Source: Streptomyces sp. 135 (lineage in GTDB: Bacteria > Actinomycetota > Actinomycetes > Streptomycetales > Streptomycetaceae). From it: DNA of 64,000 bases. Location of the stretch: NCBI RefSeq assembly GCF_020026305.1, contig NZ_CP075691.1, positions 5,704,001-5,768,000 on the forward strand. The letters are read 5' to 3'. The notes below the pieces were generated by a model. That model searched no databases and was not told where the DNA came from. It saw only the letters and a program-made list of their open reading frames with translations. Below are positions 45,412-64,000 of this stretch, piece after piece. Numbering within the stretch: the first letter of the stretch is position 1; each line of letters opens with the position of its first letter. A program made the translations under genes and the position numbers.

Positions 45412-46299
45412 TCAGCGGAACCGGACCACGACCGCCGTCGCGTGCCGCGTCGTGTTCTGCCGCACCTCGACCATCACCACCGGCTCAGCGGGCAGCGCCG
45501 CGTACGTCAGGTCGCCGATGCCGATCGCGGTCGCCACCCCCTCGCCCACCGGCTCCGGCAGCGCCCGCGCGGCCGCCGACCGCACCGCGGGGGACAGCGG
45601 TGACGACACCACCGGGGTGCCGTCACCGGGCAGGGCGAGGACCAGCGCCTGAGGGCGGGCGGGGTTTCCGGTGCAGCCGACCACGACGGCGTCCCGGGTG
45701 TCGCTGTGCCGCAGCTTCAGCCACGCGCGCGTGCCGCCCCGGTACGCCGAGTCGAGCCGCTTGATCACCAGGCCCTCGACGCCGGTCGCGGGCAGCGTCT
45801 CGTACCAGGTCAGGGCCAGGTCCCGGTCGGTCGTCGACGGCACCGCCTGGAGCGGCGGCCCCCAGGGCGCGAGCAGCCGTACGAGGCGCGCGCGCCGCTC
45901 CGTGTACGGCAGTCGGCGGCAGTCCTCGCCGCCCTCCGTGAGCAGGTCGAAGGCGGCGTACGAGGCGGGCAGGGTGCGCGCGAGGACGCCGGCACGCGCG
46001 CGGGTGGCCGCCGCCCGCTGCTGCACGGCGGCGAAGTCGATGCGGCCGCCGGACCACACCACGACCTCGCCGTCGAGCGCGGTGCCCTCGGGCAGCTCGG
46101 CCGCGGCCTCGGCGAGGTCGGGGAAGGCGCTGGTGACGGTCCTTCCCGAACGGGCCTGGAGCGTCACCTCGCCCCGCTCGCCCCGGAGCACGACCATGCG
46201 GTGCCCGTCGAACTTGGGCTCGTACGCCCAGCCGCCGCCCTCCGGCAGCGCGCTCACCGCCTCCGCGAGGGCGACCCGTACGGGCCGCGTCAGGATCAT
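45412..46299 (-). CDS. ATP-dependent DNA ligase (NHEJ type)
   Basis: 295 aa. Adenylation motif I is YEPKFDGHRM with nucleophile Lys29. Further nucleotidyltransferase motifs are ALDGEVVVW (III), GVEGLVIKRLDS (IV) and AWLKLRHSD (V), followed by a short OB fold. It is smaller than multidomain LigD ligase and resembles stand-alone LigC-type repair ligases. Its start overlaps the stop of the polymerase gene by 4 bases, and both face ku across a shared promoter. Together they would perform non-homologous end joining: end binding, gap filling and sealing. Confidence 0.93.
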   Translation of the reverse strand: MILTRPVRVALAEAVSALPEGGGWAYEPKFDGHRMVVLRGERGEVTLQARSGRTVTSAFPDLAEAAAELPEGTALDGEVVVWSGGRIDFAAVQQRAAATRARAGVLARTLPASYAAFDLLTEGGEDCRRLPYTERRARLVRLLAPWGPPLQAVPSTTDRDLALTWYETLPATGVEGLVIKRLDSAYRGGTRAWLKLRHSDTRDAVVVGCTGNPARPQALVLALPGDGTPVVSSPLSPAVRSAAARALPEPVGEGVATAIGIGDLTYAALPAEPVVMVEVRQNTTRHATAVVVRFR

Positions 46300-47192
46300 C
46301 GCGCGGCCCGGGCGGGCAGGGGTCTGGCCCCGTCGTGGGTGACGAGGGGGTCGAGCAGGTCGCCGTGGCCCCGCAGCCGGGGCGCGATGTCGTCCGCGGT
46401 GAAGACGAGCTGCTCAGGGTCCTCGCAGGTCTCGACCTCCTCCCAGGTCACGGGGGTGGAGACGGTCGGCTCGGCGCGGGCCCGCAGGGTGTAGGGCGCG
46501 GCGGTGGTCTTCGCGGCGGCGTTCTGGCTGAAGTCGACGAACACCTTGCCCGGCCGCAGGCTCCGCGTCATCCGGTGCACGATGAGCGCGGGCAGCTCCT
46601 GCTCGGCCTCGACGGCCAGGGACTTCGCGTACGCGCTGACGCGTTCCGAGGGCGTCGGCTCCAGCGGGACGAGCAGGTGCAGGCCCTTGCTCCCGGACGT
46701 CTTCGCGTACACGTGGAAGCCGTCGGCCGCCAGCCGCTCGCGCAGCCACAGGGCGGCGTGGCAGCACTCCACGACGGTGGCGGGCGGGCCGGGGTCCAGG
46801 TCGAACACCAGCCGGTCGGCCCGCGCCGGGGCGTCGGCCCGCCACTGCGGCGTGTGGAACTCGGTCACCAGATTGGCCGACCACATCAGCGACGGCAGGT
46901 CCTGTACGAGGATCTGGCGCGTCGGCCCGTCGGAGCGGGGCACCTCGGCGGTCCGCACCCATTCGGGGGTGCCCGGCAGCACGTTCTTGGTGAAGAAGCG
47001 CTGGCCGTCGGGCCCGTCGGGGTAGCGCAGGAAGGACAGGGGCCGGTCCACGAGGTGCGGCAGGAGGGCGTCGGCCGTGCTGGCGTAGTAGTGCAGCACC
47101 TCGCCCTTGGTGAAGCCGCTCGCGGGATAGATGACCTTGTCCAGGTTGCTGAGCGAGATCCGTCGCCCCTCCACCTCTGTGATCGGCGTCAT
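46296..47192 (-). CDS. LigD-type polymerase (AEP primase/polymerase domain)
   Basis: 298 aa from ATG 47192. Family signatures are SNLDKVIYPASGFTKGEVLHYY, the metal-binding FDLDPGP (Asp131, Asp133), TSGSKGLHLLVPL and KVFVDFSQNAAAKTT. This archaeo-eukaryotic primase-type polymerase fills gaps and adds ribonucleotides during end joining. In mycobacteria the domain is fused in LigD; here it is a separate protein encoded with the ligase and divergent from ku. I remember the same arrangement in S. coelicolor (SCO5308/5309). Confidence 0.95.
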   Translation of the reverse strand: MTPITEVEGRRISLSNLDKVIYPASGFTKGEVLHYYASTADALLPHLVDRPLSFLRYPDGPDGQRFFTKNVLPGTPEWVRTAEVPRSDGPTRQILVQDLPSLMWSANLVTEFHTPQWRADAPARADRLVFDLDPGPPATVVECCHAALWLRERLAADGFHVYAKTSGSKGLHLLVPLEPTPSERVSAYAKSLAVEAEQELPALIVHRMTRSLRPGKVFVDFSQNAAAKTTAAPYTLRARAEPTVSTPVTWEEVETCEDPEQLVFTADDIAPRLRGHGDLLDPLVTHDGARPLPARAAR

Positions 47193-47251: not shown

Positions 47252-48478
47252 GTGCGATCCATATGGAACGGTGCGATCTCCTTCGGCCTGGTCAGCATCC
47301 CGATCAAGCTCGTGAACGCCACCGAGAACCACTCGGTCTCCTTCCGCCAGATCCACACGGAGGACGGCGGCAGGATCCGCTACCGCAAGGTGTGCGAGCT
47401 GGAGGACCGCGAGGTGACCTCGGCGGAGATCGGCAAGGGGTACGAGGACGCGGACGGGTCGATCATCCCGATCACGGACCAGGACCTTGCGGCGCTGCCC
47501 ATCCCGACGGCCAAGACGATCGAGATCGTGGCCTTCGTCCCGGCCGACCGCATCGACCCGCTCCAGATCGACGCGGCGTACTACCTCGGGGCCAATGGCG
47601 TCCCGGCCGCCAAGCCGTACACGCTGCTGCGCGAGGCCCTCAAGCGGAGCCGGAAGGTGGCCATCGCGAAGTACGCGCTCCGGGGCCGGGAGCGGCTCGG
47701 CATGCTGCGCGTGGTCGACGACGTGATCGCCATGCACGGGCTGCTGTGGCCGGACGAGATCCGCGTGCCCGAGGGGGTGGCCCCCGACTCCCATGTCACG
47801 GTCCGCGACGCCGAACTCGACCTGGCCGACGCCCTGATGGACACCCTGGGCGAGGTCGACATGTCCACACTCCATGACGACTACCGCGCGGCGGTCGAGG
47901 AACTCATCGCCGCGAAGGTCGAGGGCGGGGCTCCCGCCGAGAAGGCCCCGGCCGGCGAGGCGGGCGGCGGCAAGGTCATCGACCTGATGGCCGCCCTGGA
48001 GAACAGCGTCCGGGCGGCCCGCACGGCCCGGGGCGGGTCCGCCGGGGCCGGGGAGTCCGCCGAGTCCGGTGAGGGGGTCGGGGAGGCGGAGGTCACCCGG
48101 CTGGGGGACCGCCGCGCCAAGACGGCCTCCGCGTCCCCGCGCAGGACGGCGTCGGCGCGCAGGTCGGCCCCCGCGGCCCCCAAGGAGGTCGGCGGCAAGA
48201 AGTCGACGTCGACCGCGGCGAAGAAGAAGGACGCGCCCGCCAAGAAGACGGCGACGAAGTCCACGGCGACGGCCCGTAGATCGACGGCGGGCAAGGCGGA
48301 CGCGGGCAAGGCGAGCGCGAGCAGGGCGACCACGGCCAAGACGGCGGCCAAGACGGCGACCAGGACCGCAGCCAAGAAGACGACTGAGAAGACGCCCAAG
48401 AAGACGGCGCAGAAGGCGGCCGGGGAGAAGACGGCGTCGGCGCAGAAGACCACGGCCAGGCGCCGCGCCTCGGCGTGA
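47252..48478 (+). CDS. ku: Ku protein with histone H1-like tail
   Basis: 408 aa from GTG 47252. The Ku core (1-255: RSIWNGAISFGLVSIPIKLVNATE, VCELEDREV, YYLGANG, KYALRGRERLGMLRV) forms the homodimeric ring that binds broken DNA ends and recruits the ligase and polymerase. Residues about 280-408 are an extended Lys/Ala/Thr-rich tail (repeats such as AKKTATK and AKTAAKTA), like histone H1 C-termini. Bacterial Ku tails bind DNA and control threading onto it; this tail is long for the family. The divergent promoter (47193-47251) shows three CCATAA repeats. Confidence 0.97.
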   Translation: MRSIWNGAISFGLVSIPIKLVNATENHSVSFRQIHTEDGGRIRYRKVCELEDREVTSAEIGKGYEDADGSIIPITDQDLAALPIPTAKTIEIVAFVPADRIDPLQIDAAYYLGANGVPAAKPYTLLREALKRSRKVAIAKYALRGRERLGMLRVVDDVIAMHGLLWPDEIRVPEGVAPDSHVTVRDAELDLADALMDTLGEVDMSTLHDDYRAAVEELIAAKVEGGAPAEKAPAGEAGGGKVIDLMAALENSVRAARTARGGSAGAGESAESGEGVGEAEVTRLGDRRAKTASASPRRTASARRSAPAAPKEVGGKKSTSTAAKKKDAPAKKTATKSTATARRSTAGKADAGKASASRATTAKTAAKTATRTAAKKTTEKTPKKTAQKAAGEKTASAQKTTARRRASA

Positions 48479-48603: not shown

Positions 48604-48688
48604 ATCGCTTGATGGAATTAGATCTTCCGCGCAATGATCCCTGCGGACACAATGGGATTCTTTGGGATTTCCGGGGGGTTTAAGGTAT

Positions 48689-48895
48689 ATGGCAAGTAAT
48701 CCATTCGAAGATGATGGTGCGGAATACCTGGTACTCGTGAACGACGAGAATCAGCACACCCTCTGGCCCGTCGGGCCCGATATCCCGGCCGGCTGGACCG
48801 TCGTACAAGAGGCGAGTTCACGGGCGGATTCCCTGGCCTACGTCGAAGAGCACTGGACCGATATGCGTCCGGCGAGCCTGATATCCGGCTCCTGA
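48689..48895 (+). CDS. MbtH-like NRPS chaperone
   Basis: 68 aa from ATG 48689; an upstream in-frame opening at 48662 adds nine residues without a ribosome site. The family signature is intact: NPFEDDGAEYLVLVNDENQHTLWP, IPAGWTVV and SLAYVEEHWTDMRP with the three conserved Trp. MbtH-like proteins bind and stabilise adenylation domains. It opens the NRPS cluster, is followed by an MFS exporter gene 1 base later, and its 5' half is less GC-rich than average, consistent with acquired DNA. Confidence 0.97.
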   Translation: MASNPFEDDGAEYLVLVNDENQHTLWPVGPDIPAGWTVVQEASSRADSLAYVEEHWTDMRPASLISGS

Positions 48896-48896
48896 C

Positions 48897-50327
48897 GTGA
48901 CCGGTCGCGAAAAAGCGGCGGGGAAAGCGGAGCCGCCGGGGAAAGCGGCGCCGCGGGGTGGGCAAAAGCAGCGGACGGGCCGCTTCAGCGATACGGGGCC
49001 CTTGCTGCTCGTCTGGTCGGGGCAGGCCGTCTCACTGGTCGGAAGCGCCGTTCTCAGATTCGCTTTCATCATCGAGGTGTGGTCCACCGGAGAGCAGGCG
49101 TCCGCCGTCACCGCGCTGTCGCTGTGCGCCGTGCTTCCGCAGGCACTGTTCAGCCCATTCGCGGGCGCGATTATCGACCGCATTCGTAAACGTTCGGCGC
49201 TCCAGATCGCGGACGCCGGCGGAATCCTGGCCGTCGGCCTGCTGGCCCTCGTGCACTTCTTCGGCGGCGGCCTGGAACCGTGGCAGGTCTATCCCGCCAC
49301 CGTGCTGCTCGGCATCTCCGCCGCGTTCCAGCTGCCCGCGCTCACCGCCGCCGTCCCGCTGCTGGTGCGCAAGGACCAGCTGGGCCGCGCCAACGGCCTG
49401 CTGGCGGGCGCCCGCAGCGCCGCGGGGATCTGCGGCCCGGCGCTCGGCGGCATCATGATCGCCCTCACCGGGATCGGCGCCATCCTCGTCATCGACCTGG
49501 CCAGTTACGCCTTCGCGCTGATCGGTATCCGCATCGTGCGGATGCGGGGCGACAAGGTCCCCGAGGGGGCCGGCGCCCCGCGCACGAAGATCACGGCCGA
49601 GGCCGTCGAGGGCATGCGCTACCTCTTCCGGCAGGCGAGCCTGCGCGACATGACCGTGAACTTCTGCGTGGTCAACCTGGTGATGGTCTTCGGCTTCGCC
49701 GTCGTCCAGCCCATGGTCCTGCTCAAGTCGGGCAACGGCGCGCTCGCCGCGGTGAACAGCGCGATCGGCATCGGCGGGGTCCTCGGCGGCCTGGTGATGG
49801 CCGCGTGGGGCGGCCCGAAGAACCGCGGCCGGGGCATGATGCTCGGCATCCTCGGCATGTGCCTGGCGGCGCAGCTCGGCACGTCCCTGGTCGGCGGCGT
49901 CGTCGGCTGGTGCGCGGCCATGCTGGCCGGCGCGGTGCTCATGACGGTCGTCAACACCTCGATGCAGTCGATCGTGCAGACCAAGGTGCCCCATGAATGG
50001 CAGGGCCGGGTCTTCGGCGCGGTGATGTTCCTGTCGCAGATCTCCGGGCCGCTGGCCATGGCGTTCTCCGGGCCGCTCGCCGACGGCGTCTTCGAGCCGC
50101 AGGCCGCCGAGGGGAGCGGCGTCTTCGTGGTCCTCGGCCCGCTGTTCGGCGACGCCCCGGGCAGCGGCATGGCGGCGATGCTCTTCCTCGCCGGCGTCGC
50201 GGGCATCGCGGTCGCGCTCTGGGGTCTGGCGAGCCGGTCGATCAGGGACATCGACGTGCTGCTGCCGGACATCGACGACGAGACCGAGCGCGAGGGCGGT
50301 GAGAAGGATGACGCGGTGCGTGCATGA
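48897..50327 (+). CDS. MFS exporter of the NRPS cluster
   Basis: 476 aa from GTG 48897, 1 base after the MbtH stop. About 40 residues of Lys/Gly/Pro-rich N-terminus precede 12 TM helices ([22 protein letters not shown] and onward) with the MFS motif A-type loop [11 protein letters not shown] and the helix 7-8 region [21 protein letters not shown]. The family includes enterobactin-exporter-like (MFS_3) proteins. It probably exports the peptide product or gives self-resistance. The stop lies 29 bases inside the first NRPS gene. Confidence 0.9.
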
Positions 50328-53300
50328 ACTCTTCGAGGAGCAGGCGTCACGGGCGCCCGACGCGACCGCCCTCGTGTACGAGGACGAACGGCTGACGTAC
50401 GCCGAACTCGACGCCCGCGCCGACCGGTTGGCGGGGCTCCTCACGGCGCGCGGAGTGCGGCGCGGCGACACCGTCGGGGTGTACCTGGAGCGCTCCGCCG
50501 AGCTGGTCGTGGCGGTCCTCGGCACGCTCAAGGCCGGTGCCGGGTACGTGCCGCTCGACCCCGGCTTCCCTGCCGGGCGGCTGCGCGGCATGGCGGGGGA
50601 CGCGGGCATCACGGCGGTGCTCGCGCGGCACGGGGCGGAACCGGAGCCGCTGGGGGCCGAGGCCGCGCCGGTGCTGCACGTCGAGGACGCCGTACGCGCA
50701 CGGCCGTTGCCGCGCGGCGCGGTACGGGTGGCGGCGGACGACGTGGCCTGCGTGATGTTCACCTCCGGGTCGACGGGGCGGCCGAAGGGCATCGTGGCCC
50801 CGCACCGCGCCGTCACCGAGACGCTGACCGGCCAGGACTACGCCTCCTTCGGGCCGGGCGCGGTGTGGTTGCAGTGCGCGCCCGTGTCGTGGGACGCCTT
50901 CGCGCTGGAGCTGTGGGGGCCGCTGCTGGGCGGCGGGACGTGCGTCCTGCATCCGGGGCGGCGCCCCGACCCGGTCGTGATCGCGCGGCTCGTCGCCGCG
51001 CACGGGGTCACGTCCATGTACCTGTCCGGTTCCCTCTTCGACGTCATCGTCGACGAGTACCCGCGCGCCCTCACCGGGCTGCGCGAACTGATCGTCGGCG
51101 GCGAGGCGTTGTCGCCCCCGCACGTGGCCCGCGCCCTGGAGCGCCGGCCGGGCCTACGGCTCAGCAACGGCTATGGCCCCGTCGAGTGCATGGTCTTCCT
51201 CACCGTCCACCGCGTCACTCCGCAGGACGTACGCGACGGCCGTCCGGTACCGATCGGCCGTCCGCTGGCGGGTAAACGGCTTTACGTCCTCGACGACCGC
51301 CTGCGGCCGGTCGCGGACGGCGTCACCGGCGAGCTGTACGCCGCCGGGGCGGGCGTCGCGCGCGGCTACTGCGACGCGAGGCTGACGGCGGAGCGGTTCG
51401 TGGCGTCGCCGTTCGGTGATGCGGCGGGGCGTGCGGGCGGCTCCGCCGGCGGCGCACGCATGTACCGCACCGGTGACCTGGCGCTCCGACGCCCCGACGG
51501 CACCTTCGAGTACCGGGGCCGGGCCGACGACCAGGTGAAGATCCGCGGCTTCCGGGTGGAACCGGCGGAGGTCGAGGCGGCCCTGACCCGCCACCCGGGG
51601 GTCGACCGCGCCGCGGTGGTGGCCACCCGCGCGGAGCGGGACGGTGAGCGGCAGCTGGTGGCGTATGTGGTTCCGGGGGTGCGGGCGGCTCGAGACGGCC
51701 AAGACGCTCACCGCAGCCGGGCCACGCCGGTGCGATCCGCCCTCTCCGAAGCCGACCTGCGTGCCCACGCCGAGCGGGAGCTCGCCGACTTCCTCGTGCC
51801 CGCCGCCTTCGTCCTCCTGGACGCGCTCCCGCTGACGGCCGGCGGCAAACTGGACCGGGCCGCGCTGCCGGTGCCGTCGCCGCGGGGCGGGGCGCAGCGA
51901 GGGGCGGGCGGTGCCTCGCCGGGGGAGGACGGTGAGACGGTTCGCGCGCTGTGCGGGCTGTTCGCCGATGTGCTCGGGGGCGGCCCGGTCGGCGCTGACG
52001 ACGACTTCTTCGCCCTGGGCGGCCACTCGTTGCTGGCCGCGCGTCTGCTCGGCCGCGTGCACGCCCGGCTGGGCGCCGAGCTCGACCTGCGGACGCTCTT
52101 CGCGGCGGCCACCCCGGCCCGGCTGGCCCCGTACGTCGACCAGGCCGCCAAGTCCCCGGTGCCGCGCGCGGAACCGGCGTACGGGAACACCGCCCTCCTC
52201 CCCGTCTCGCCCGCCCAGCACCGCCTGTGGTTCCTCGACCGGCTCGGCGCGGGAGTCGCGTACAACCTGCCCATGCTGGTGCGGCTGCGCGGCGCGGTCG
52301 ACCCGGACGCGCTGGCCGACGCCCTCGGGGACGTCGTGACCCGGCACGAAGTGCTCCGTACCGTCTTCGACGAGGTGGACGGCGCACCCGTGCGGCGCGT
52401 GCTGGACGGGGCCGAGGCCCGGCCGCCGTTCCGTCACGTCACCGTCGCCGAAGCCGAGGTGACGGACGCCGTGGAGGCCGCCGCCCGGCACCGCTTCGAG
52501 CTGAGCCGTGAACTGCCCCTCCGCGCCGTCCTGTTCAGCGTCCGCGAGCGGCCCGGCGAGCACGCCCTGCTCGTCCTGGTCCACCACATCGCCGGGGACG
52601 GCTGGTCCCTCGCCCCGTTCTTCCGCGACCTGTCACGCGCCTACGCCGCGCGGGCCGAGCACGGAAGGCGGGCGGCGCAGCCGCCCCTGCCCGTCACCTA
52701 CGCCGAGCACGCCCGCCGCCACGCGGCACGCCTCGGCCCACCCGAAGACCCCGACTCGCTCACCGCCCGCCAACTCGCCTACTGGAGGCGGAGACTGCAC
52801 GGAGCCGACCCCGAGGGGCCGCTGCTTCCGCGCCGCCCGGACCGGCCCGCCGTACCGGGGCCGACCGCCGCGACCGTGGTGCGCCGCCTCGACGCGATGG
52901 CCCACGCCCGCCTCCTCGACGCCGCCCGCGCCGAGGGCGCCACCCTCTTCATGGCCCTGCACGCCGCGCTCGCTGCCGCCCTCACGCGGGCGGGCGCGGG
53001 GGAGGACCTCACGATCGGCGCACCCGTGGCCGGGCGCGCGGGGGACGGCAGCGTCGAGGACGCCGTCGGGTTCTTCGTGAACATGCTCGCGCTGCGCACC
53101 GACGTGTCCGGCGACCCGAGCGCGCGGGAACTGCTCGCCCGGGTCCGCGGATGCGACCTCGGCGCCTTCGCCCACCAGGACGTGCCGTTCGAGCAGGTCG
53201 TGAGCGAGCTGAACCCGCCGCGCGCGCGGGGGCGGCAGCCGTTCACCGACGTCGTCCTCGCCCTGCAGAACAACGCGCGCGCCGAGGTGGACCTGCCCGG

Positions 53301-53943
53301 CGCCGAATCCGGCGTCGAGGTGGTGCGCACCGGCGAGGCCCGCTTCGAACTGCTCGTCGACGTCACCGAGGCGACCGGACCCGGCGGCGCCCCCGAGGGC
53401 CTCACGCTCACCTTCGAGTACCGCGCGGAGTCCCTGGAGGAGCGCTTCGTGACGTGGCTCGCCGACGCGCTGCCGCACGCCCTGCTCACGGCGGCCGAGA
53501 TCCCGGACGCCCGCCTCGGCGACCTCGTCCCCACCGGGCCCCCGCGCCGCGCGGACGAGAGCGACAGGGTCGCCGTCCCGGCCCCGGCCGAGGTCGCCGC
53601 GGGCCCGGTGACCCCGCTGGAGCGGGAGGTCGCCGCCGTGTGGGCCGACGTCCTCGGCGTTCCGGACGTCGCGCGGGACGACGACTTCTTCGCCCTCGGC
53701 GGCAACTCGCTGCGCGCGGTGCGGGTCGCCGCCCGCCTCACCACCGACGCCAGGACCGTGACGGCCGCGCAGCTCTTCGCCGCCCCGACCGTCGCCGCCC
53801 TCGCCGCAGGACTGGCCAGGGCACCCGTCACCGCCGGCCCGGCGCCCGCCCCCATCCCGAGGCGGCCGCGCGTACCCCGTCAGCAGGATCAGCAGAGCCA
53901 CCCCGGCAGAGAGCAGGAGGAGAGGCCGTGGACCTCAGCGTGA
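50299..53943 (+). CDS. NRPS, A-T-C-T (loading module plus a C-T without adenylation domain)
   Basis: 1214 aa from GTG 50299 (alternatives ATG 50308, GTG 50320). Adenylation domain 8-520 has [12 protein letters not shown] near 155, YRTGDL, and A10 [10 protein letters not shown] near 512. My eye alignment to GrsA gives specificity residues D-A-L-Y-I-G-G-V-F-K, a hydrophobic, valine-like pocket. T1 has Ser577 (LGGHSLLA). Condensation domain 610-1050 has an intact HHIAGDG (762-768). T2 has Ser1137 (LGGNSLRA). There is no adenylation domain for T2, so it must be loaded in trans or stay unloaded. The stop lies 16 bases inside the luciferase-like gene. Confidence 0.94.
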
Positions 53944-55049
53944 TGTTCTTCGGCGCGGACAGCGCCACGGCGGCCAGGAGCGACGGCGGTACGGGCGACA
54001 GCGCCACGGCCGCCGGCGGCGGCGCCACGGGCGGCAGCCCCGCGTCGCACGCCCGGACCTATGACGACATCCTCACCGTCGCCCGCACCGCAGACCGCCT
54101 CGGCTTCCACGCCGTCTGGACCCCCGAGCGCCACTTCCAGCAGGTCGGCCAGGTCTTCCCCAGCCCGCCCGTGCTCAGCGCGGCCCTCGCCGTCGCCACC
54201 GAGCGCATCAGGATCCGCGCGGGCAGCGTCGTCCTGCCCCTGCACCACCCGCTGAAGGTCGCCGAGGACTGGGCGGTCGTCGACAACCTCTCGCACGGCC
54301 GCGCCGGCCTCTCCGTCGCCACCGGCTGGCACTCCGCCGACTTCACCCTCGCCCCCGGCCACTACGAGGACCGCAGGCGGCGCACCCTCGAAGCCGTGCC
54401 GGAACTGCGGCGGCTGTGGGCGGGCGAAGCCGTCACCTACCCGGACGGCACCGGGCGGCCCGTCGCCGTCGTCCCCCAACCACGTCCCGTACAGCGGGAG
54501 CTGCCGCTGTGGATCACCACCTCCGGCAACCCCGAGACCTGGGAGACCGCCGGGCGGCTGCGCGCCGGGGTGCTCGGCGCGACCGTCGGGCAGAGCAGGG
54601 ACGAACTGGCCGACAAGATCGACCGCTACCGCAGGGCCTGCGCCGCCGCCCCCGACCAGGCGGGCACCGACGCGCACGGGCGCGTGACGCTGATGGCGCA
54701 CACCTACGTCGGCGCGGACGACGCGGAGGTGCGGCGCCTGGCCGCCGCGCCCCTCAAGGCGTACCTCGGCTCGTACCTGCGCCAGACCGCCGCCAACCGC
54801 GCGGCGGACGCCCGCGGGGGCGCCGAGCTGACCGGCGAACAGACCGCGATGCTCACCGAGTTCGCCTTCCAGCGCTATCTGAACTGGGGCAGCCTGCTCG
54901 GCTCGCCCGGCACCTGCGCCAAGATGCTCGCCGACCTGCGCGACCTGGGCTGTGACGAGGTGGCCTGCTTCATCGACTTCGGCATCGGACGGGACGAGGT
55001 ACTCGCGGGGCTGCACCGCCTCGCCGAGCTGAGAGAGGCCGCACTGTGA
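53928..55049 (+). CDS. MupA/Atu3671-type luciferase-like FMN monooxygenase
   Basis: 373 aa from GTG 53928 with an excellent AGGAGGAGAGG. It has the TIM-barrel bacterial-luciferase fold with [12 protein letters not shown] at the start, [67 protein letters not shown] and [15 protein letters not shown]. This subfamily is found in or beside NRPS/PKS genes and is usually embedded between modules. Here it is a separate protein between two NRPS genes and overlaps both. It probably hydroxylates a carrier-bound residue using FMNH2 from an external reductase. About 30 extra Gly/Ala/Ser residues after position 10 are unusual. Confidence 0.9.
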
Positions 55050-58000
55050 CCCCGAACCAGCCTTCCATGGCCGACCGCTTCAGCGCCCTTGGCAGCGAGC
55101 AGCGCGTGCGCCTGATGCGCCGCCTCGTCGAAGCCGGCCGCACCCGGGAGATCCCCCAGGTCGTCCCGCCCCGGGACGCCGGCGGACCCGTGCCGCTCAG
55201 CCCCGCCCAGCGGGACCTGTGGGTGTACGAGTCGCTGTATCCCGGCACCCCGGCCCTCAACCTCTGCTGCGCCTACCACTTCGACGCCGCCGAGGGCCCC
55301 GTGGACCCTGCCCGCCTGGAGGCCGCGCTCACCGTCGTCCAGAGCCACCACGACATCCTGCGCACCCGGATCTCCGGCACGGCGGACGACCCGCGCGTCG
55401 ACTTCCCCGACGAGGGCCCCTTCGTCCTGGAGCGCGAGGACCTGCGCGGCACGAGCACCACCATCGGACAGGCCTTCCGCGCCTTCCGCCGCCGCCCCTT
55501 CGACCTCACCGCCGACCGGCTCATCCGAGGCCGCTTCGTCCGCGTCGACGACACCCGTACGACGCTGATGCTGAGCCTGCACCACATCATCACCGACTGG
55601 TGGTCCTTCGACGTGTTGCAGAGCGAGTTCGCCGAGGCGTACCGCGCCGTGCGCGAGGGCACCGAGCCGAAGCTCACCCGCCCCGCGATCCAGTACGCCG
55701 ACTTCGCGTCCTGGCAGGGCGAACTGGAGGCCGCCGGGGTCTTCGACGACCGCCTCGGCTTCTGGCGCCGCTACCTCGCCGACCCACCGGGCCCGCTGAC
55801 CGTGCCGGGCCATGGGGACCCCGAGGCGGGTGGCGAGGACGGCATCGTCCAGATCCGCTTCCGCGTCGACGCGGACACCACCCGCGCCGTCTGCGCGCTG
55901 GCCCGCGAGCGCGGCGCCTCCGTGTACGTCGTCCTCATGACGGCCTTCGCGGTCCTCGCGCACCGCGTCACCGGCGCCGACGACCTGGTGCTCGGCACCC
56001 CGGTCGCCAACCGCTCCGCCAAGGGCCTGGAACACGTCATCGGCTACGTGATGAACGCCGTGCCGACCCGCTGGCGCATCGCCGAGGACGACTCCTTCGC
56101 CGACGTCCTCGCCCGCTTCGGCGCCGACTTCCCCGCCCTCATGGCGGGCGCCGACCTGCCGGTGGGCCGCATCGTCTCGGCCGCCGCGCCCGAACGCAGC
56201 GCGGGCCGCTCCCCCCTCTTCCAGTGGGTGTTCATGCACCTGACGGAGCAGCCGAGCGTCTCCGCCGTACGGGAGTTCGCCGAGCCCGAGCGCATCCACA
56301 CCGGCGGCGAACACGACCTGGTGGGCGTCGTGCGGGACAACGGCGACGGCATGGACGGCAGCTTCGAGATCCGCACCGACCTGTTCGCCCCTGACGCGGT
56401 GACGCGCTGGGCGGACAGTTATCTGACCCTGCTCACGCGCGTCATCGCCGACCCGACCGCGCCCCTGCGGGACCTCGACGTGCTGCCGGGTGCCGAGCGC
56501 CGCCGCCTGCTCGCCCTCGCGCGCGGACCGGCCGCCCCGGAGCCCGAGTCGCTGCCGGACATGGTGGCCCGGCACGCCGCCCGCACCCCCGACGCCCCCG
56601 CCCTCGAAGCCGACGGGCTGCGTCTCTCGTACGCCCAACTGACAAACCGGGTCGAGCGATTGGCGGGCGTCCTGGTCCGCCACGGCGCGGGGCCCGAGCG
56701 GACCGTCGCCCTCGCCCTCGGGCGCGGCGCGGACATCCCGGTGGCCGCGCTGGCCGTGCAGCGGGCCGGGGCCGCGTATCTGCCGGTCGACCCCGACTAC
56801 CCGGCCGAGCGTGTCCGCCGCGTCCTCGACGACGCGGCGCCCGCGCTCCTCGTCACCGACGCGCGCACGGCCGCCGCCGGTGTCCTGCCGCCGACGGACG
56901 TGCCCCGCCTCGTCCTGGACGACGACGCGTACGACAACGCGTATGCGGGCGCGCCCCTGACCCCCGCGCCCCTGGACCCGGCGCACGCCGCCTACGTCAT
57001 CCACACCTCGGGCTCCACCGGCACCCCCAAGGGCGTCGTCGTCACCCACGCCGGGGTCGCCGCGCTCACCCGCGGCCTCGTGGACCGTTTCGCCCTGGAC
57101 GCCGGCGCGCGGGTCCTCCAGCTCGGCTCACCGGCGTTCGACATCTCCGTCGCCGAGATGTGCATGGCCTTCGGACCAGGCGCCACCCTCGTCGTGCCGC
57201 CGCCGGGGCCCCTCGCGGGGGATGGCCTCGGCGCGGTCCTCGCCGAGCGGCGGATCTCCTGCGCCATGGTGCCGCCGTCCGTCCTCGCGACCGTGCCCGA
57301 CGCCCCCTACCCGGCGCTGCGCGCGCTCGCCGTCGGCGCCGAGGCCTGCCCGCCCGGCCTCGTGGCCCGCTGGGCCGTCGCCGGGCGCCGCCTCCACAAC
57401 GCGTACGGCCCCACCGAGGCCACCGTCGCCGCCACCCTGTCCGGCCCCCTGACCGGCGACGGCACCGCGCCGCCCCTCGGCACCCCGGTCCCGGGCACCG
57501 CCGCCCACGTCCTCGACGCACGGCTGCGGCCCGTCCCCACCGGGGTCGCGGGCGAGCTGTACCTCTCCTCGGCGGGCCTGGCCCGCGGCTACCTCAACCG
57601 GCCGGGCGCCACCGCCGAACGCTTCGTCGCCGACCCCTACGGACCGCCCGGTTCCCGCATGTACCGCACGGGCGACCTGGCGTACCGCGACGACGACGGC
57701 ACCCTCCACTACCTGGGCCGCACCGACGACCAGATCAAGCTGCGCGGCCTGCGCATCGAACCCGGCGAGATCGCCGACGCCCTCACCCGGCACCCCTCGG
57801 TGGCGCGGGCGACCGCGGCCGTACGCGAGGACGCCGACGGCCGCCCCCAGCTGACCGGCTACGCCGTGCCCGCCCCCGGCCACACCGTCGACCCGACCGC
57901 CCTCCTCGCGTACGCCGCCACGCTGCTGCCCGCGCACATGGTGCCCTCGGACGTCGTGGAGCTGCCCGAACTGCCCCTGACCCGCAGCGGGAAGCTCGAC

Positions 58001-59787
58001 CGGGCCGCCCTGCCCGCACCCCGGGCGGCCGCGGCGACGCGGGCCCCGGCCTCCGCCCGCGAGAAGGAGCTGTGCGGCCTCTACGCGCGCGTCCTCGGTG
58101 TCGACGAGGTGGGCGCCGACGACGACTTCTTCCGGCTCGGCGGCGACAGCATCATGGCCATCCAGCTCGCGGGCCAGGCCTCGGCGGCCGGCCTCGTCCT
58201 CGCACCGCGCGACGTGTTCACCCTCCGTACGCCCGCACAACTGGCCCTCCACGCGCGGTCCTCGGACGGCAGCGGCCCGGACGCGTCGGACACCGGTGTC
58301 GGCCGCTTCCCGCTCACGCCCGTCATGCGGTGGTGGCGTGAACTCGGCGGCGACCCTTGGGCGTTCACGCAGTCGATGGCGTTCCCCGTGCCGCCCGGCA
58401 CGGACCGGGAGCGGATCGAGGCCGCGGTGCGCGGGCTCACGCGGCGCCATGGCGCGCTCCGGATGCGGCTGCTGGCACCGGAGGCCGAGATGGAGGTGGC
58501 CGATGAGGTGCCGCCGGGCGTCGGCATCGAACGCGTAGAAGTGGCCGACGAGGCCGAAGCACGCGCCAGAGCCGGGAAGTTGGCGGCCGCGATCCGTCTC
58601 GCCCCGGAGGACGGCGAGATGTTGCGCGCCGTCTGGCTGGACGCCGGTCCTGTGCGGCGGGGCCTGCTGCTCCTGACCCTGCACCACCTGGCCGTCGACG
58701 GCGTCTCGTGGCGGGTCATCGGGCCGGAAGTGGCGGCCGCGCTCAGCGGCGTCCCCTCCGACGCGGCAGCCGCCCCGGCGACCTCCTTCCACCGGTGGGC
58801 CGGGCTGCTCGCCGAGGAGGCCGTGCGCCCCGAACGCGTGGCGGAGGCGGCGTGGTGGCAGGACCGGCTGGCGGCGGCGGACGACGCGCGGTTCGCCGCG
58901 GGCCGGGCGCCGGATCCCGCCGGGCGGCCGTCACCGTCGAGCTGCCCGCGGCCCTCACCGAGGCCGCGCTCACCACGCTGCCCGCCGCGTTCAACTGCGG
59001 ACCCGACGCGGTGCTCCTCACCGCGCTTGCCTCGGCGGCCGTACGCCACCGGGGCACCGGCACCCGTCTGCTCGTGCACCTCGAAGGGCACGGCCGGGAA
59101 GCGCTGTCGGCACCGGCGGACGTGTCGCGGACGGTCGGCTGGTTCACGACGCAGTACCCGGTCCTCCTGTACACGGCCGCACCCGGCGCCGACCGAACGG
59201 GCAAGGGCGCGGCCGTCGAGGCGCTCAAGGCGGTGAAGGAGCAGCTGCGGTCCGTGCCCGACGGCGGCATCGGCTGGGGTCTCCTGCGCCACCTCAACCC
59301 GGACACCGCCCCGCTCCTCGCCGAACTCCCCGTCCCGGACGTGCGGTTCAACTACCTCGGCCGGCTCAACGCCCGGGACGCGGGCGGCGGTGAACTGCTC
59401 GACGCGGGCCCCGGCGCCGTACCGCTCGGCCACGCGGTCGAGATCGACGCCCTCGCCATGGAGGGCCCGGACGGGCTGCGCCTCGAAGCGACGTTCTCGT
59501 ACGCCGAAGGGGTCATCGCGGAGGGTGAGGTGCGGGAGCTGGCCCGGCTGTGGCGCGAGGCCGTCGCCGTACTCGTCCGGGAGACGGAGGAGGGCGGCCC
59601 GGTCGGCGCCACGCCGTCGGACTTCCCGCTGGTGGACCTGTCGGCGGACCAACTGGCCATGCTGGAGGGCGGCTTGGCCGACCTCCCCGAGCTGGAGGCG
59701 GAACCGGCGGACGGTCTCCCTGCACCGGGGGCAAAACCGGCGGACGGTCTCCCCGCGCCGGGGGCGGAATCGGAGGATGGCCGATGA
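55046..59787 (+). CDS. NRPS, C-A-T-E with a frameshift in the epimerisation domain
   Basis: About 1580 aa if read through. Condensation domain (45-470) has HHIITDW (179-185), with Trp where Gly is usual. Adenylation domain has HTSGSTGTPKG near 655 and A10 PLTRSGKLDR near 978; my eye-aligned code is D-I-A-M-A-G-A-V-A-K, without a confident substrate. T has Ser1035 in LGGDSIMA, the form seen before epimerisation domains. E starts near 1085 with HHLAVDG (1213). The frame breaks near 58915-58930; shifting by one missing base restores VTVELPAALTEA through VGWFTTQYPVLL and FNYLGRL to TGA 59787. The residue would be converted to the D form if the break is a sequence error. Confidence 0.9.
59704..59769. 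repeat. 33-bp direct repeat near the 3' end of the C-A-T-E gene
   Basis: Two adjacent 33-base units (59704-59736, 59737-59769) encode the tail repeat PADGLPAPGAK / PADGLPAPGAE. It lengthens the C-terminus that faces the next synthetase and could affect docking. Confidence 0.75.
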
Positions 59788-62700
59788 GCGGGCGCATCGC
59801 CGACGTCCTGCCGCTCACCCCGGTCCAGGAAGGGCTGCTCTTCCACGCCGTACGTGACGGCGAGGGCCCCGACCCGTACCTGGTCCAGGCCCGCTTCCGC
59901 ATCGGCCCCGGGCTCACCGCCGAGACGGTACGGGGCGCGCTCGCCGCGCTCCTGGACCGGCACCCCAACCTGCGCGCCTGCTTCCGGCACGAACGCCTCG
60001 ACCGCCCCGTGCAGGTGATCCCGCACAAGGTCGCGCTGCCCTGGAAGGAGGCCGACCTGACCGGGCGCGCGGCGGCCGAAGTGGCGTCCGCTACGGAGGA
60101 GTTGCTGGCCGAGGACCGTGCGGGCCGCTTCGACCTGGCACGTCCGCCGGCCGTCCGCGCCCTGTTCGTGCGGCACGACACCGGAGGCGAACTCGTCCTC
60201 TCCTTCCACCACATCCTGCTCGACGGCTGGTCCGTCCCGGTCCTGGAGCGGGACCTCGCGGCACTGGTCACCGGCAGGCCCCTGCCGCCCGCCGTGCCCT
60301 ACCGGCAGTACGCGCTGTGGCTGAGCCGCCAGGACCAGGGCCTCGCGGAGGTGGCCTGGCGCGAGGCGCTCGCGGACCTGGAACGGCCGGCACCGCTCGT
60401 GCCGCCGCAGTCAACGCAGTCACCGGAGCCGCCGGAGCCGCCGGATACCGGTGGCGAGGAAGGAGCACCGGACACCGCACGGCTGCACCTCACCGCCGAG
60501 CTGACCGCCGCGCTCTCCCGGCGCGCCGCCGAGGCGGGCGTCACCCTCAACACCGTCACGCAGGCCGCCTGGGCCCTGGTGCTCGCCCGGCTGACCGGCG
60601 GCCGGGACCTGGTCTTCGGCGGCGTCGTCGCGGGCCGCCCGCACGACCTGCCCGGGGCGGGGGAGATGGTGGGCCTGTTCATCAACACGCTGCCGGTACG
60701 GGTGCGGCTGCGCGACGGCGAGACGGTCGGGGAGCTGCTGACCCGGATCCAGGACGAGCAGGCGCGCCTGGCGCCCTACCACCACGTGCGGCTCGCGGAC
60801 GTGCGGCGGATGGCGGAGGCGGCTGCGTCCGGGGAACTCTTCGACTCGGTCCTCGCCTTCGAGAACTTCCCGCGCGGATCGCGGGAGCCGGGGGACGACG
60901 GCCCCGACACCGTGCGCGTCACGGACGTACGCGATGCCACGCACTACCCCGTGACGCTCGCCGTCGTCGCGGGGGAGCGGCTGTTCCTGTCGGTGGGCTG
61001 CCGGCACGGCCTCGACGCGGCGGTGGTCGCCGCACGCGTCGTACGGGCCTTCGAACAGCTGGCGGGGGACCTCGCGACGCCGGTGGACCGGATCGACGTA
61101 CTCCCCGAGGAGGAGCACCGGCGGCTGCTCGCGCGGTCCGCGGGCGCCCCGGCGGCGCCACTGCCCGGCCCCGCCACCGTGACCGGGCGGTTCGCCGCGC
61201 AGGCGGCCCGTACGCCGGACGCGCCCGCCGTGGAGAGCGGCGACGACGTCCTCACGTACGCCGCGCTCGCCGCGGAATCGGACCGCCTGGCGCGCCGCCT
61301 CACCGCCGCGGGCGTGGCACCGGGCTCCACGGTGGCCCTGCTGCTGAGCCGTTCGCCGTCGCTGGTCGTGGCGCAGCTGGCGGTGCTCAAGGCGGGGGCG
61401 TGCTGGCTGCCGCTGGACCCGGCCCAGCCGGCGGAGCGGCTCGCGCGTCTGCTGGACGGGGCGTCGGCGGGGCTGGTCCTGACGGAGGGGGAGCCGTCCG
61501 TGCCGCTGCCCGCCGGGGTGCGCCCCATGGCCGTACGCGGCCGCTCGCCGGAGTCCGCGGAGTCCGCGGCACCCCCGGCCGTCGCGCCGCATCCCGAGGC
61601 CCCGGCGTGCGTGATGTACACGTCCGGGTCGAGCGGTGAGCCCAAGGCGGTCGTGGTCCCGCAGCGGGCCATCGCGGACCTGGCCGCGGACAGGTGCTTC
61701 GGGGGCGCGGACGGCTCGGGAGCGCACCACCGGGTGCTGCTGCACAGCCCGCATACGTTCGACGCCGCCACCTACGAGATATGGGTGCCGCTCCTGAACG
61801 GCGGCACGGTCGTGGTCTGCCCCGCCGGGCCGGTGACCCCCGCCCTGCTGGCGCGGGTGCTGCCCGAGCGGCGCGTGACGGCGCTGTGGCTCACGGCGGA
61901 GCTGTTCCGCACGGTCGCGGAGCTGGCACCCGGGTCGTTGCGCGGGCTGCGCGAGGTGTGGACCGGCGGTGACGTCGTGGACGCCGAAGCGGTGCGCCGC
62001 GTCAGGCGCCACTGCCCCGGCACGGTGGTCGTGAACGGCTACGGCCCCACCGAGGCCACGGTGTTCGCGACGGCCCACCGCGTGACCGGGCCCGCCCCGA
62101 GCGGCGCGCCGCCCATCGGCCGCCCGCTGGACGGCACCCGCGTCCACCTCCTCGACGCCCGGCTGCGCCCGGTGCCGGACGGCTGCGCGGGGGAGGTGTA
62201 CCTCGCGGGAGCCGGACTCGCCCACGGCTACCTCGGACGCGCGGCCGCCACCGCCGAACGCTTCGTGCCCGACCCTCACGGCGCGCCCGGCACCCGCATG
62301 TACCGCACGGGCGACCTGGCCCGCAGAACCCCCGAGGGCACCCTCGTCTTCGCGGGCCGCGCGGACGACCAGCTCAAGATCCGCGGCTTCCGCGTCGAAC
62401 CGGCGGAGGTGGAGGCGGCACTGACGTCCTGCCCCAGACCCGCCTGGTCGCCGCGAGACGCCGGGCCGGCTGGCCCCCGGCGGCGGCCGACCGGCCGCGC
62501 TTGCCCGGCCCCGGCCGGCCCCACCCTGCGGCGGACCGCCGCCCGCACCTGCCCCCACGCCTGGGCCCGCGGGCCGTGCGCCCTCCGGCAGGCCGGCGGC
62601 GCTACGGAGCCGGCCCGCACCGACTTCTTCGCGTCCGGCGGCCACTCGCTGAGCGCGCTGCGCCTGGCCGGGCGGATCGAAGAGGCCTGGGGCGTACGGG

Positions 62701-63578
62701 TCCCCGTGGCCGCCCTCTTCGCGGCTCCGACGCCCGCGCGGCTCATCGCCCGCCTGGACACGGCCGGGCCCGGCGATTCCGCACGCGGGCGCCTCGCACC
62801 CGGCGGCGCGGAGAGCCTGGCCCCGCTGCTCGCCCTTCGCGCGGACGGCGACCGCGCCCCCCTCTTCTGCGTGCACCCGGGGCTCGGCGTGAGCTGGGCG
62901 TACACGGCCCTGCTGCCCCACCTCGCCCCGGACCGCCCGGTCTACGCCCTCCAGACCCCGGCCCTCTCGGCAGCCGGGGAGGGCGGCCCAGCACAACTCC
63001 CGGATTCCGTTGCCGAGTTGGCGGACCAGTACCTGACCCGCATCCGTACCGTACGGCCCCGCGGCCCCTACCTCCTCCTCGGCACATCCTTCGGCGGCCC
63101 CGTGGCCCACGAGATGGCGGTGCGGCTGCGCGCGTCCGGCGAGGAGGTCGCGCTGCTCGCCGTGGTGGACGCCATGCCGAAGCCGCCGGAGGCAGTCCGC
63201 ACCCCGCTCGCACCGGCCGTCGTCGAGGCGGAGGCCCGGCGCATCCTCCGCGAGGACGGAGCCGCGCTGGCGGGCATCGGCGACCACCGCCTCGCCGCGC
63301 TCGCCGAAGCGATCGCCCACCACGTGGTCATCGGCAGGAGTTGGGTCCCGTCCTCCTACGACGGCACCGTGACCCTCTTCGCCGCCACCCGCGACCCCGA
63401 GGCCATCCCCACGGAGGAGAAGGCCGCGGCCTGGCGCCGCGCCGCCACGGCGGTCGACGTCCACGAACTGGCCTGCGCCCACGCCGAAGTACTCCACGCG
63501 GCCCCGGCCGCACACATCGCCGCCACCCTCGAATCCACCCTCACCGGCCGCCCCCAAGCCCCCCTCCAGGGAGAGTGA
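59784..63578 (+). CDS. NRPS, C-A-(degenerate)-T-TE
   Basis: 1264 aa from ATG 59784, overlapping the previous stop (ATGA). Condensation domain has HHILLDG (142-148), the form seen after epimerising modules. Adenylation domain has YTSGSSGEPKA near 612; my eye-aligned code is D-A-Y-W-W-G-G-V-F plus the A10 Lys, which is missing, again valine-like. After VEAALTSC (62432) the sequence becomes Arg/Pro/Ala noise until FFASGGHSL. About 60-80 residues, including A10 and the first T helix, are lost. T Ser955 and a type I thioesterase with Ser1102 (GTSFGG), VVDAMP and a late His are intact. Either a real deletion or a mis-assembled GC-rich stretch. Confidence 0.88.
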   Translation: MSGRIADVLPLTPVQEGLLFHAVRDGEGPDPYLVQARFRIGPGLTAETVRGALAALLDRHPNLRACFRHERLDRPVQVIPHKVALPWKEADLTGRAAAEVASATEELLAEDRAGRFDLARPPAVRALFVRHDTGGELVLSFHHILLDGWSVPVLERDLAALVTGRPLPPAVPYRQYALWLSRQDQGLAEVAWREALADLERPAPLVPPQSTQSPEPPEPPDTGGEEGAPDTARLHLTAELTAALSRRAAEAGVTLNTVTQAAWALVLARLTGGRDLVFGGVVAGRPHDLPGAGEMVGLFINTLPVRVRLRDGETVGELLTRIQDEQARLAPYHHVRLADVRRMAEAAASGELFDSVLAFENFPRGSREPGDDGPDTVRVTDVRDATHYPVTLAVVAGERLFLSVGCRHGLDAAVVAARVVRAFEQLAGDLATPVDRIDVLPEEEHRRLLARSAGAPAAPLPGPATVTGRFAAQAARTPDAPAVESGDDVLTYAALAAESDRLARRLTAAGVAPGSTVALLLSRSPSLVVAQLAVLKAGACWLPLDPAQPAERLARLLDGASAGLVLTEGEPSVPLPAGVRPMAVRGRSPESAESAAPPAVAPHPEAPACVMYTSGSSGEPKAVVVPQRAIADLAADRCFGGADGSGAHHRVLLHSPHTFDAATYEIWVPLLNGGTVVVCPAGPVTPALLARVLPERRVTALWLTAELFRTVAELAPGSLRGLREVWTGGDVVDAEAVRRVRRHCPGTVVVNGYGPTEATVFATAHRVTGPAPSGAPPIGRPLDGTRVHLLDARLRPVPDGCAGEVYLAGAGLAHGYLGRAAATAERFVPDPHGAPGTRMYRTGDLARRTPEGTLVFAGRADDQLKIRGFRVEPAEVEAALTSCPRPAWSPRDAGPAGPRRRPTGRACPAPAGPTLRRTAARTCPHAWARGPCALRQAGGATEPARTDFFASGGHSLSALRLAGRIEEAWGVRVPVAALFAAPTPARLIARLDTAGPGDSARGRLAPGGAESLAPLLALRADGDRAPLFCVHPGLGVSWAYTALLPHLAPDRPVYALQTPALSAAGEGGPAQLPDSVAELADQYLTRIRTVRPRGPYLLLGTSFGGPVAHEMAVRLRASGEEVALLAVVDAMPKPPEAVRTPLAPAVVEAEARRILREDGAALAGIGDHRLAALAEAIAHHVVIGRSWVPSSYDGTVTLFAATRDPEAIPTEEKAAAWRRAATAVDVHELACAHAEVLHAAPAAHIAATLESTLTGRPQAPLQGE

Positions 63579-64000
63579 ACCCAGTGGACGCACCGCACCC
63601 GGCCGACACCACCCCCGAGCCCGTCCCGACGGCCTCCACCGGCGAGGAGTACGAGTTCCCCCTCTCCGACGCCCAGAGCCGCCTCCTCGTCCTGGACCGG
63701 ATGAACCCCGGCACCGCCCAGTACAACGTCCCCGCCGCCTTCACCGTGCACGGCCCCTTCGACCTCGGCGCCCTCACCCGCGCCCTGGACGCCGTCGTGG
63801 CCCGCCACGAAGCCCTGCGCACCGTCTTCCGCATCGCCGCCGACGGCACGCGGGCGCAGATCGTCTCCGCCACCGGCCGCGCGCACCTCACGGTCGAGAA
63901 GGACGTACCGGCATCCGAGGCGGACGCACGGATGCGTACCGACGCGGCCCGCCCCTTCGACCCGGCGACAGGACCGCTGCTGCGCTGCACGGTGTACACC
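63575..64000 (+). CDS. NRPS, start of another condensation-type domain (partial)
   Basis: The GTG at 63575 overlaps the previous stop (GTGA); GTG 63584 has a better-spaced AGGGAG and is equally possible. The visible 142 codons show a condensation-domain beginning: EFPLSDAQSRLLVLDRMNPGTAQYNVP, then LTRALDAVVARHEALRTVF and FDPATGPLLRC. The HHxxxDG motif would lie beyond the window. It shows that the assembly line continues after a gene carrying a thioesterase. Confidence 0.9.
   Translation, partial: MNPVDAPHPADTTPEPVPTASTGEEYEFPLSDAQSRLLVLDRMNPGTAQYNVPAAFTVHGPFDLGALTRALDAVVARHEALRTVFRIAADGTRAQIVSATGRAHLTVEKDVPASEADARMRTDAARPFDPATGPLLRCTVYT

Follow-up and report, generated by a model that had tools for sequence, protein, structure and literature searches.

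A conserved carrier domain with an apparently lost loading domain in an ichizinone-type biosynthetic cluster of Streptomyces sp. 135

In a 64,000-nucleotide stretch of the Streptomyces sp. 135 genome (NZ_CP075691.1, positions 5,704,001 to 5,768,000; hereafter the window), we analysed a nonribosomal peptide synthetase (NRPS) with the domain order A1-T1-C1-T2 (A, adenylation; T, carrier; C, condensation), whose gene is followed by a free gene for a luciferase-like monooxygenase (LLM). Judging from comparisons between related clusters, the second carrier, T2, seems to have lost its loading domain and yet is kept intact in the relatives. The locus is an ichizinone-type NRPS/polyketide synthase (PKS) cluster, matched by gene order and gene kinds, and is thus less unexplored than the sequence alone had suggested. 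What is new is the conservation of the A-T-C-T arrangement in 19 clusters with T2 as the best-kept carrier, the joint absence of a second A domain (A2) and of an acyltransferase (AT) domain, and evidence from C-domain types on the order of the assembly line.

The ichizinone cluster of Streptomyces sp. LV45-129 (ichA-ichP, sequence record PQ885478) was published in 2025, and the main text and Table 2 of PMC12144821 list Ku/LigD neighbours, MbtH, a major facilitator superfamily (MFS) protein, IchC, IchD (the LLM), IchE, IchF, IchG, IchH, IchI and IchJ. The window belongs to an 8.83-Mb single-contig genome (G000), from which the DNA beyond position 64000 was fetched and both flanks were annotated. 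The locus shares the published gene order and gene kinds from Ku/LigD through to the polyketide cyclase: from left to right, two LigD-type genes, Ku, MbtH-like, MFS, A-T-C-T and LLM, followed by C-A-T-E (E, epimerization), C-A-T-TE (TE, thioesterase), C-A-T, KS-ACP (KS, ketosynthase; ACP, acyl carrier protein), a reverse-strand thioesterase gene and a short polyketide-cyclase-like gene (Table 1). The further cluster genes that a preliminary description of the window had expected beyond position 64000 were indeed found there (IchG on to 67003, KS-ACP, thioesterase and cyclase-like). According to the main text of PMC12144821, ichizinones are pyrazinone tetrapeptides Val-X-D-Leu-Val, in which the alpha carbon of X, a 3-amino acid, is oxidised. 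IchC is treated there as the initiation module, its A domain being predicted to take Val; IchG is proposed for X, with IchH acting off-line together with an unknown transaminase and a trans-AT; IchD is suggested to oxidise the alpha carbon; and the site where residue 2 is formed and oxidised is left open. Feeding beta-amino acids to an ichH deletion failed, and poor uptake is among the reasons that the authors give. C1 and T2 of IchC go unmentioned in that main text, which has zero occurrences of PCP, thiolation or peptidyl carrier and two of "condensation", both on other matters.

The preliminary description had proposed an A-T-C-T synthetase from position 50299, a second carrier without an adenylation domain and a free luciferase-like oxygenase after it, all of which held when Pfam and NCBIfam profiles were applied. 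In the protein encoded by 50299-53940 (+), Pfam located AMP-binding at residues 12-357 (8e-88), AMP-binding_C at 424-517, Condensation at 634-1076 (1e-71) and two PP-binding stretches (best 1110-1170), and no second A domain was found. Since the attachment serine is kept in T1 and T2 and the HHxxxDG motif in C1, C1-T2 is a module that is competent by motif and has no A domain in cis. The pocket code of A1, with positions set by motif from GrsA numbering, reads DA(L/M)(S/G/A)(I/L/V)GG(V/I)F in all 22 IchC equivalents compared below. The nearest solved relative of the window's A1 (50299-51855) in the pocket region is SlgN1 (4gr4/4gr5, 3-methyl-Asp), which agrees at 8 of 9 positions in an alignment read by eye.

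A search of 295 genomes in the genus gave LLM relatives with 78-91% identity in 14 genomes besides the window's own, and the block MFS / A-T-C-T / LLM / C-A-T-E / C-A-T-TE / C-A-T / KS-ACP was repeated in 13 of them; in G171 the block is present with frames broken in some later genes. G163, a 3.7-kb contig with no full IchC equivalent, stands outside the counts, and G400 (A-T-C-T) was not carried into them. The A-T-C-T clusters thus comprise 14 plus G520, G522, G344, Micromonospora orduensis (L091) and Streptomyces olivochromogenes (L092, whose cluster is without the C-A-T-TE gene), 19 in all including the window. The T2 attachment serine is present in 22 of 22 IchC equivalents (these 19 and three A-T-C-A-T proteins), and HHxxxDG is kept by C1 in all A-T-C-T proteins but one (18 of 19) and in all three A-T-C-A-T proteins. 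Mean pairwise identity among the 19 clusters, computed without G344.N1.A1 and G000.N3.T1, is 74.1% for T2, compared with 65.1% for T1, 72.6% for IchE-T, 69.2% for IchF-T and 70.7% for IchG-T, and T2 identity exceeds that of T1 in 149/171 pairs, which are non-independent, and in 18/21 sublineage pairs. Given the conservation of A-T-C-T across 19 clusters, in which no carrier is better kept than T2, T2 is, as judged from these alignments, not debris. This bears on the idea that T2 is bypassed, with IchG serving as module 2 as published and C1-T2 as a leftover: the model in the main text of PMC12144821 needs no T2, but a leftover should decay, yet T2 is the best-conserved carrier and its attachment serine is present in all 22 proteins, so that we hold a bypass to be quite improbable.

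Three relatives, Streptomyces sulfonofaciens JCM 5069 (G045, L094), G310 and Kitasatospora sp. GP82 (G327), have A-T-C-A-T instead of A-T-C-T. Their A2 codes are DAWSVAAVC, DAWTVAAVC and DASSVAAVC, respectively, which, by the usual code tables, we take to be Phe/Tyr-like pockets. In the same three, the partner PKS is KS-AT-ACP with a GHSxGE motif in the AT, whereas none of the 18 A-T-C-T clusters with a KS in the region compared has the AT (663-728 amino acids from KS to end versus 999-1007); in the L091 genome it is likewise absent, as seen in an unbroken alignment. Several A-T-C-T clusters keep the PTYPF stretch of the post-AT linker. In the A1 tree, G045 and G310 lie outside a group formed by G327 and the A-T-C-T proteins, the latter with support 95/89. 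A joint loss of A2 and AT seems the simplest reading, in which both absences would be losses. A2 and the A domain of IchG fall into one A clade (support 100/99).

We lean, tentatively and with slightly less than even confidence, towards the following explanation. C1-T2 would have started as an ordinary C-A-T module, and A2 would have disappeared from it in the same lineage as the AT from IchH. T2 would nevertheless be used in every cycle and charged in trans, with the A domain of IchG as the putative loader, since this is the only cluster candidate from the A subfamily of A2, the link being one of A-domain kinship. C1 would join the T1-bound first residue to the T2-bound one, and the free LLM would oxidise the carrier-bound intermediate at the carbon adjoining the thioester, either ahead of the IchE C domain or at it. 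Other A-less NRPS modules are charged in trans, such as the last module of syringomycin SyrE and yersiniabactin HMWP2/HMWP1, with which C1-T2 shares a competent C and T and no A in cis; unlike in these systems, the A-less module is here the second of a starter protein, close relatives keep the A domain, and its absence goes with that of the AT in the PKS. The failed feeding reported in the main text of PMC12144821 fits carrier-bound over free intermediates. Should either trans charging or transfer of a residue onto T2 hold, it would show how an assembly line can give up loading domains and still operate, a point of relevance to engineering. For residue 2, a concrete experimental set is offered by T2 together with the A-T-C-A-T clusters found in nature and the shared absence of A2 and AT.

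Several observations weigh against this explanation. A dedicated loader is not visible in the cluster. The trees do not settle whether A2 was lost or gained: in the LLM tree, monophyly of the A-T-C-A-T clusters is not rejected (p-AU 0.224), and the KS tree rejects neither grouping (p 0.328 and 0.325). When the C1-T2 joints were searched for remnants of A2, a profile of the A10 tail, built from 85 A-T linkers, matched with shuffle p <0.05 in 9 of 19 cases and not in the rest. C1 of L091 (L091:8279-9622) reads MHQIAADGWS, with HQ for HH, which speaks against condensation there. SlgN1, the nearest solved relative of A1, takes 3-methyl-Asp and not Val. Finally, a line IchC-IchG-IchH-IchE-IchF would make the T2 residue a fifth, whereas published ichizinones have four.

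The preliminary description had left two routes, loading of T2 in trans or transfer of the first residue onto it, and both are still live. T2 has no A in cis, and neither a separate A-domain loader nor a trans-A gene dedicated to T2 was seen among the genes of the conserved block. When 7 genomes were queried with A2, no separate A domain came close (best 50-51%). A third route would be direct charging of T2 by A1 in cis, which requires no separate loader and has a parallel in yersiniabactin synthetase, where several carriers are served by one A domain. The protein has no A domain other than A1, the arrangement A1-T1-C1-T2 is unbroken in 19 clusters, and T1 is less conserved than T2. An active C1 would then give Val-Val, however, which is absent from ichizinones, and T2 belongs to a different, aromatic-type A domain in the A2-bearing relatives, which together make this route improbable. 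As for the origin of residue 2, an amino acid plus malonate would have one carbon too many for ichizinone B (C26H36N4O5, main text of PMC12144821), while an acyl-CoA plus malonate would fit the carbons and leave the nitrogen and the A domain of IchG unexplained; neither was retained.

We then compared the C-domain types. Profiles were trained on C domains of this genome (111 Condensation matches) that have an upstream E (13) or T (19), four low-scoring domains (o77 2949, 9359, 15723, 28932) being dropped from the LCL training, and leave-one-out assignment was correct for 13/13 DCL and 18/19 LCL domains. IchF-C is DCL in 17 of 18 clusters, the exception being G327, whose IchE is also without E; C1 is LCL in 22/22; and IchG-C is LCL-like in 21/21, including G045 and G310, where gene order puts IchG after an E domain. 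These types fit a passage from IchE to IchF and would put IchG after an L-carrier, and so support, at the level of predicted specificity, the order IchC to IchG and later IchE to IchF. Because IchE-C is only weakly LCL-like and sits on its own long branch, its donor may be unusual, possibly the ACP of IchH; a grouping of IchE-C with C domains that follow KS-T-LLM was looked for in the tree and not found. A colinear line Val(T1)-X(T2)-D-Leu(IchE)-Val(IchF) would agree with the gene order; it was set aside, as it gives the LCL-like C domain of IchG no donor.

The order IchC to IchG sharpens the puzzle, for it places T2 between Val and IchG in a pathway whose product has no extra residue. One answer would be that, after the loss of A2, C1 moves Val from T1 to T2 and adds nothing, with T2 docking IchG and/or the LLM, which would be comparable, on the NRPS side, to the KS0 bimodules for alpha-hydroxylation in trans-AT PKSs. 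The four A domains of the line (IchC, IchG, IchE and IchF) equal the four ichizinone residues, the LCL-like IchG-C is as expected after an L-residue on IchC, T2 is the strongly conserved C-terminal carrier, L091 has HQ for HH in its C1, and MupA bimodules with a KS0 are known (text of PMC10952193). Against such a transfer, the loss of the condensation catalytic residue that would mark a KS0-like domain is confined to L091, the other 18 of 19 C1 domains having HH intact and the full motif, and the LCL scores of C1 are not clearly below those of the A-T-C-A-T relatives (266 to 369 versus 300 to 392). No carrier-to-carrier transfer by a C domain was found in the published work consulted, and in mupirocin the action of MupA on the ACP precedes the KS0 transfer (text of PMC10952193). 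The mupirocin MupA bimodule shares with the window a free LLM of the same family that acts on carrier-bound thioesters and an extra non-elongating step nearby, but it is a PKS with KS0 and ACP rather than C and T, and MupA is specific for beta-ketoacyl-ACP (text of PMC10952193). Overall, we consider a transfer unlikely, although to be taken seriously as the chief rival of trans charging; its fuller version, in which deletion of the A domain made C1-T2 a non-elongating module that receives valyl from T1, offers no amine acceptor and docks the oxygenase and the next subunit, so that, with the AT deletion, one lineage would hold two loader-less modules, we judge somewhat less likely still.

The LLM gene starts with a GTG at 53928 that overlaps the NRPS stop codon (53941-53943), and encodes 373 amino acids. 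It scores 389.8 bits against NCBIfam TIGR04020 (cut-off 244.45), which places it in the MupA/Atu3671 family. A 632-amino-acid open reading frame (53151-55049) is this gene with a spurious upstream extension, since third-position GC changes frame near 53.9 kb. Among 80 related loci, 42 LLMs lie inside an A domain, 32 are free open reading frames (13 of them from this cluster family) and 6 are fused otherwise. The statement that such oxygenases are usually built into the enzymes is therefore borne out by about half of the loci only, and a free LLM is too common to count as part of an unusual arrangement. Nor does the LLM explain the missing A domain, because it is equally present in G045, G310 and G327, whose module 2 has its own A. 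Outside the cluster family, 7 of the 19 free LLMs stand in the order carrier / LLM / C. In six of these the LLM was scored as coming after a KS-T protein, and the seventh (L132) has KS-T before the LLM too. By analogy with this pattern, the product of the LLM would go to the C domain encoded directly after it, here IchE-C; its putative substrate could be bound to T2 or to the IchH ACP, the sequence fitting either.

The LLM adjoins T2 in 21 of the 22 clusters with a full IchC equivalent. This would suit a further alternative, in which the T2 residue is added and later destroyed, alpha-hydroxylation by the LLM splitting the residue so that its amide nitrogen, left on Val, becomes ring N1. Such splitting of a residue, leaving the amide nitrogen, has been proposed for the oxygenase domain of MtaG. 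Such a loss would reconcile five charged carriers with four residues, but it is a purely chemical proposal that leaves the aromatic-type A2 code of the relatives unexplained, and we regard it as very improbable. For the oxidation favored above, the nearest solved LLM, PuwE (PDB 6ket, 3.8e-81), offers a likeness: the product proposed for it in puwainaphycin biosynthesis, a 3-amino-2-hydroxyacyl unit (text of PMC4219810), matches the oxidised residue 2 of ichizinone in its carbon relation, although the PuwE oxygenase is a domain of a PKS-aminotransferase-NRPS hybrid and that of the window a free gene.

Table 1. Genes of the cluster and its left border, in positions of the window
Feature	Position	Strand	Basis and remarks
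Two LigD-type DNA-repair genes	45412..47192	-	ligase 45412-46299, primase-polymerase 46296-47192; Pfam PF01068, PF21686; left border
Ku protein gene	47252..48478	+	Pfam PF02735; left border
MbtH-like protein (IchA equivalent)	48692..48895	+	internal ATG of open reading frame 48662-48895; MbtH call by eye
MFS transporter (IchB equivalent)	48897..50327	+	Pfam PF07690
IchC equivalent, A1-T1-C1-T2	50299..53943	+	Pfam, motifs
IchD equivalent, free MupA/Atu3671-family FMN-dependent LLM	53928..55049	+	TIGR04020; nearest solved chain PuwE 6ket
IchE equivalent, C-A-T-E, E split by frameshift near 58905	55046..59787	+	Pfam/NCBIfam; DNA comparison with G093, G247
IchF equivalent, C(DCL)-A-T-TE, eroded about 62440-62640	59784..63578	+	Pfam without AMP-binding_C; comparison with G247; C type
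IchG equivalent, C(LCL-like)-A-T	63575..64000, on to 67003 (L009:3003)	+	Pfam, C type
IchJ-like cyclase gene	70246-70602, counted on from the window (L009:6246-6602)

In contrast to the cluster described in the main text of PMC12144821, the window's copies of IchE and IchF carry lesions. When compared with G093 and G247, IchE shows a one-base gap that splits its E domain, and relative to G247, IchF has lost ~260 bp in many small gaps that affect the C-terminal part of its A domain and the start of its T domain; IchC and IchD are intact. The window copy thus looks broken in these two genes, and production of trisubstituted pyrazinone tetrapeptides by this strain is, as predicted from the lesions, doubtful. 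Poor sequence is not an obvious cause, because NRPS frames of up to 8453 amino acids are open in the assembly.

A small gene similar to the window's MbtH-like gene is present in the relatives. The IchJ-like cyclase adjoins the cluster only in G000, G093 and G247 among 16 genome regions compared, so that ring closure may differ in clusters without it. Elsewhere in the window's genome, the 8453-amino-acid NRPS frame has, at G000:C1 ~7934500-7936500 (L193-L194), two C domains of LCL type between which only a T was found, a putative second A-less C-T step, and another NRPS locus (G000:C1 354250-361608) contains two LLMs, one embedded in an A domain and the other part of an LLM-C protein directly after a T. 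In Streptomyces violens (L104), a different cluster encodes a further A-T-C-T protein, with a KS-T and a free LLM close by.

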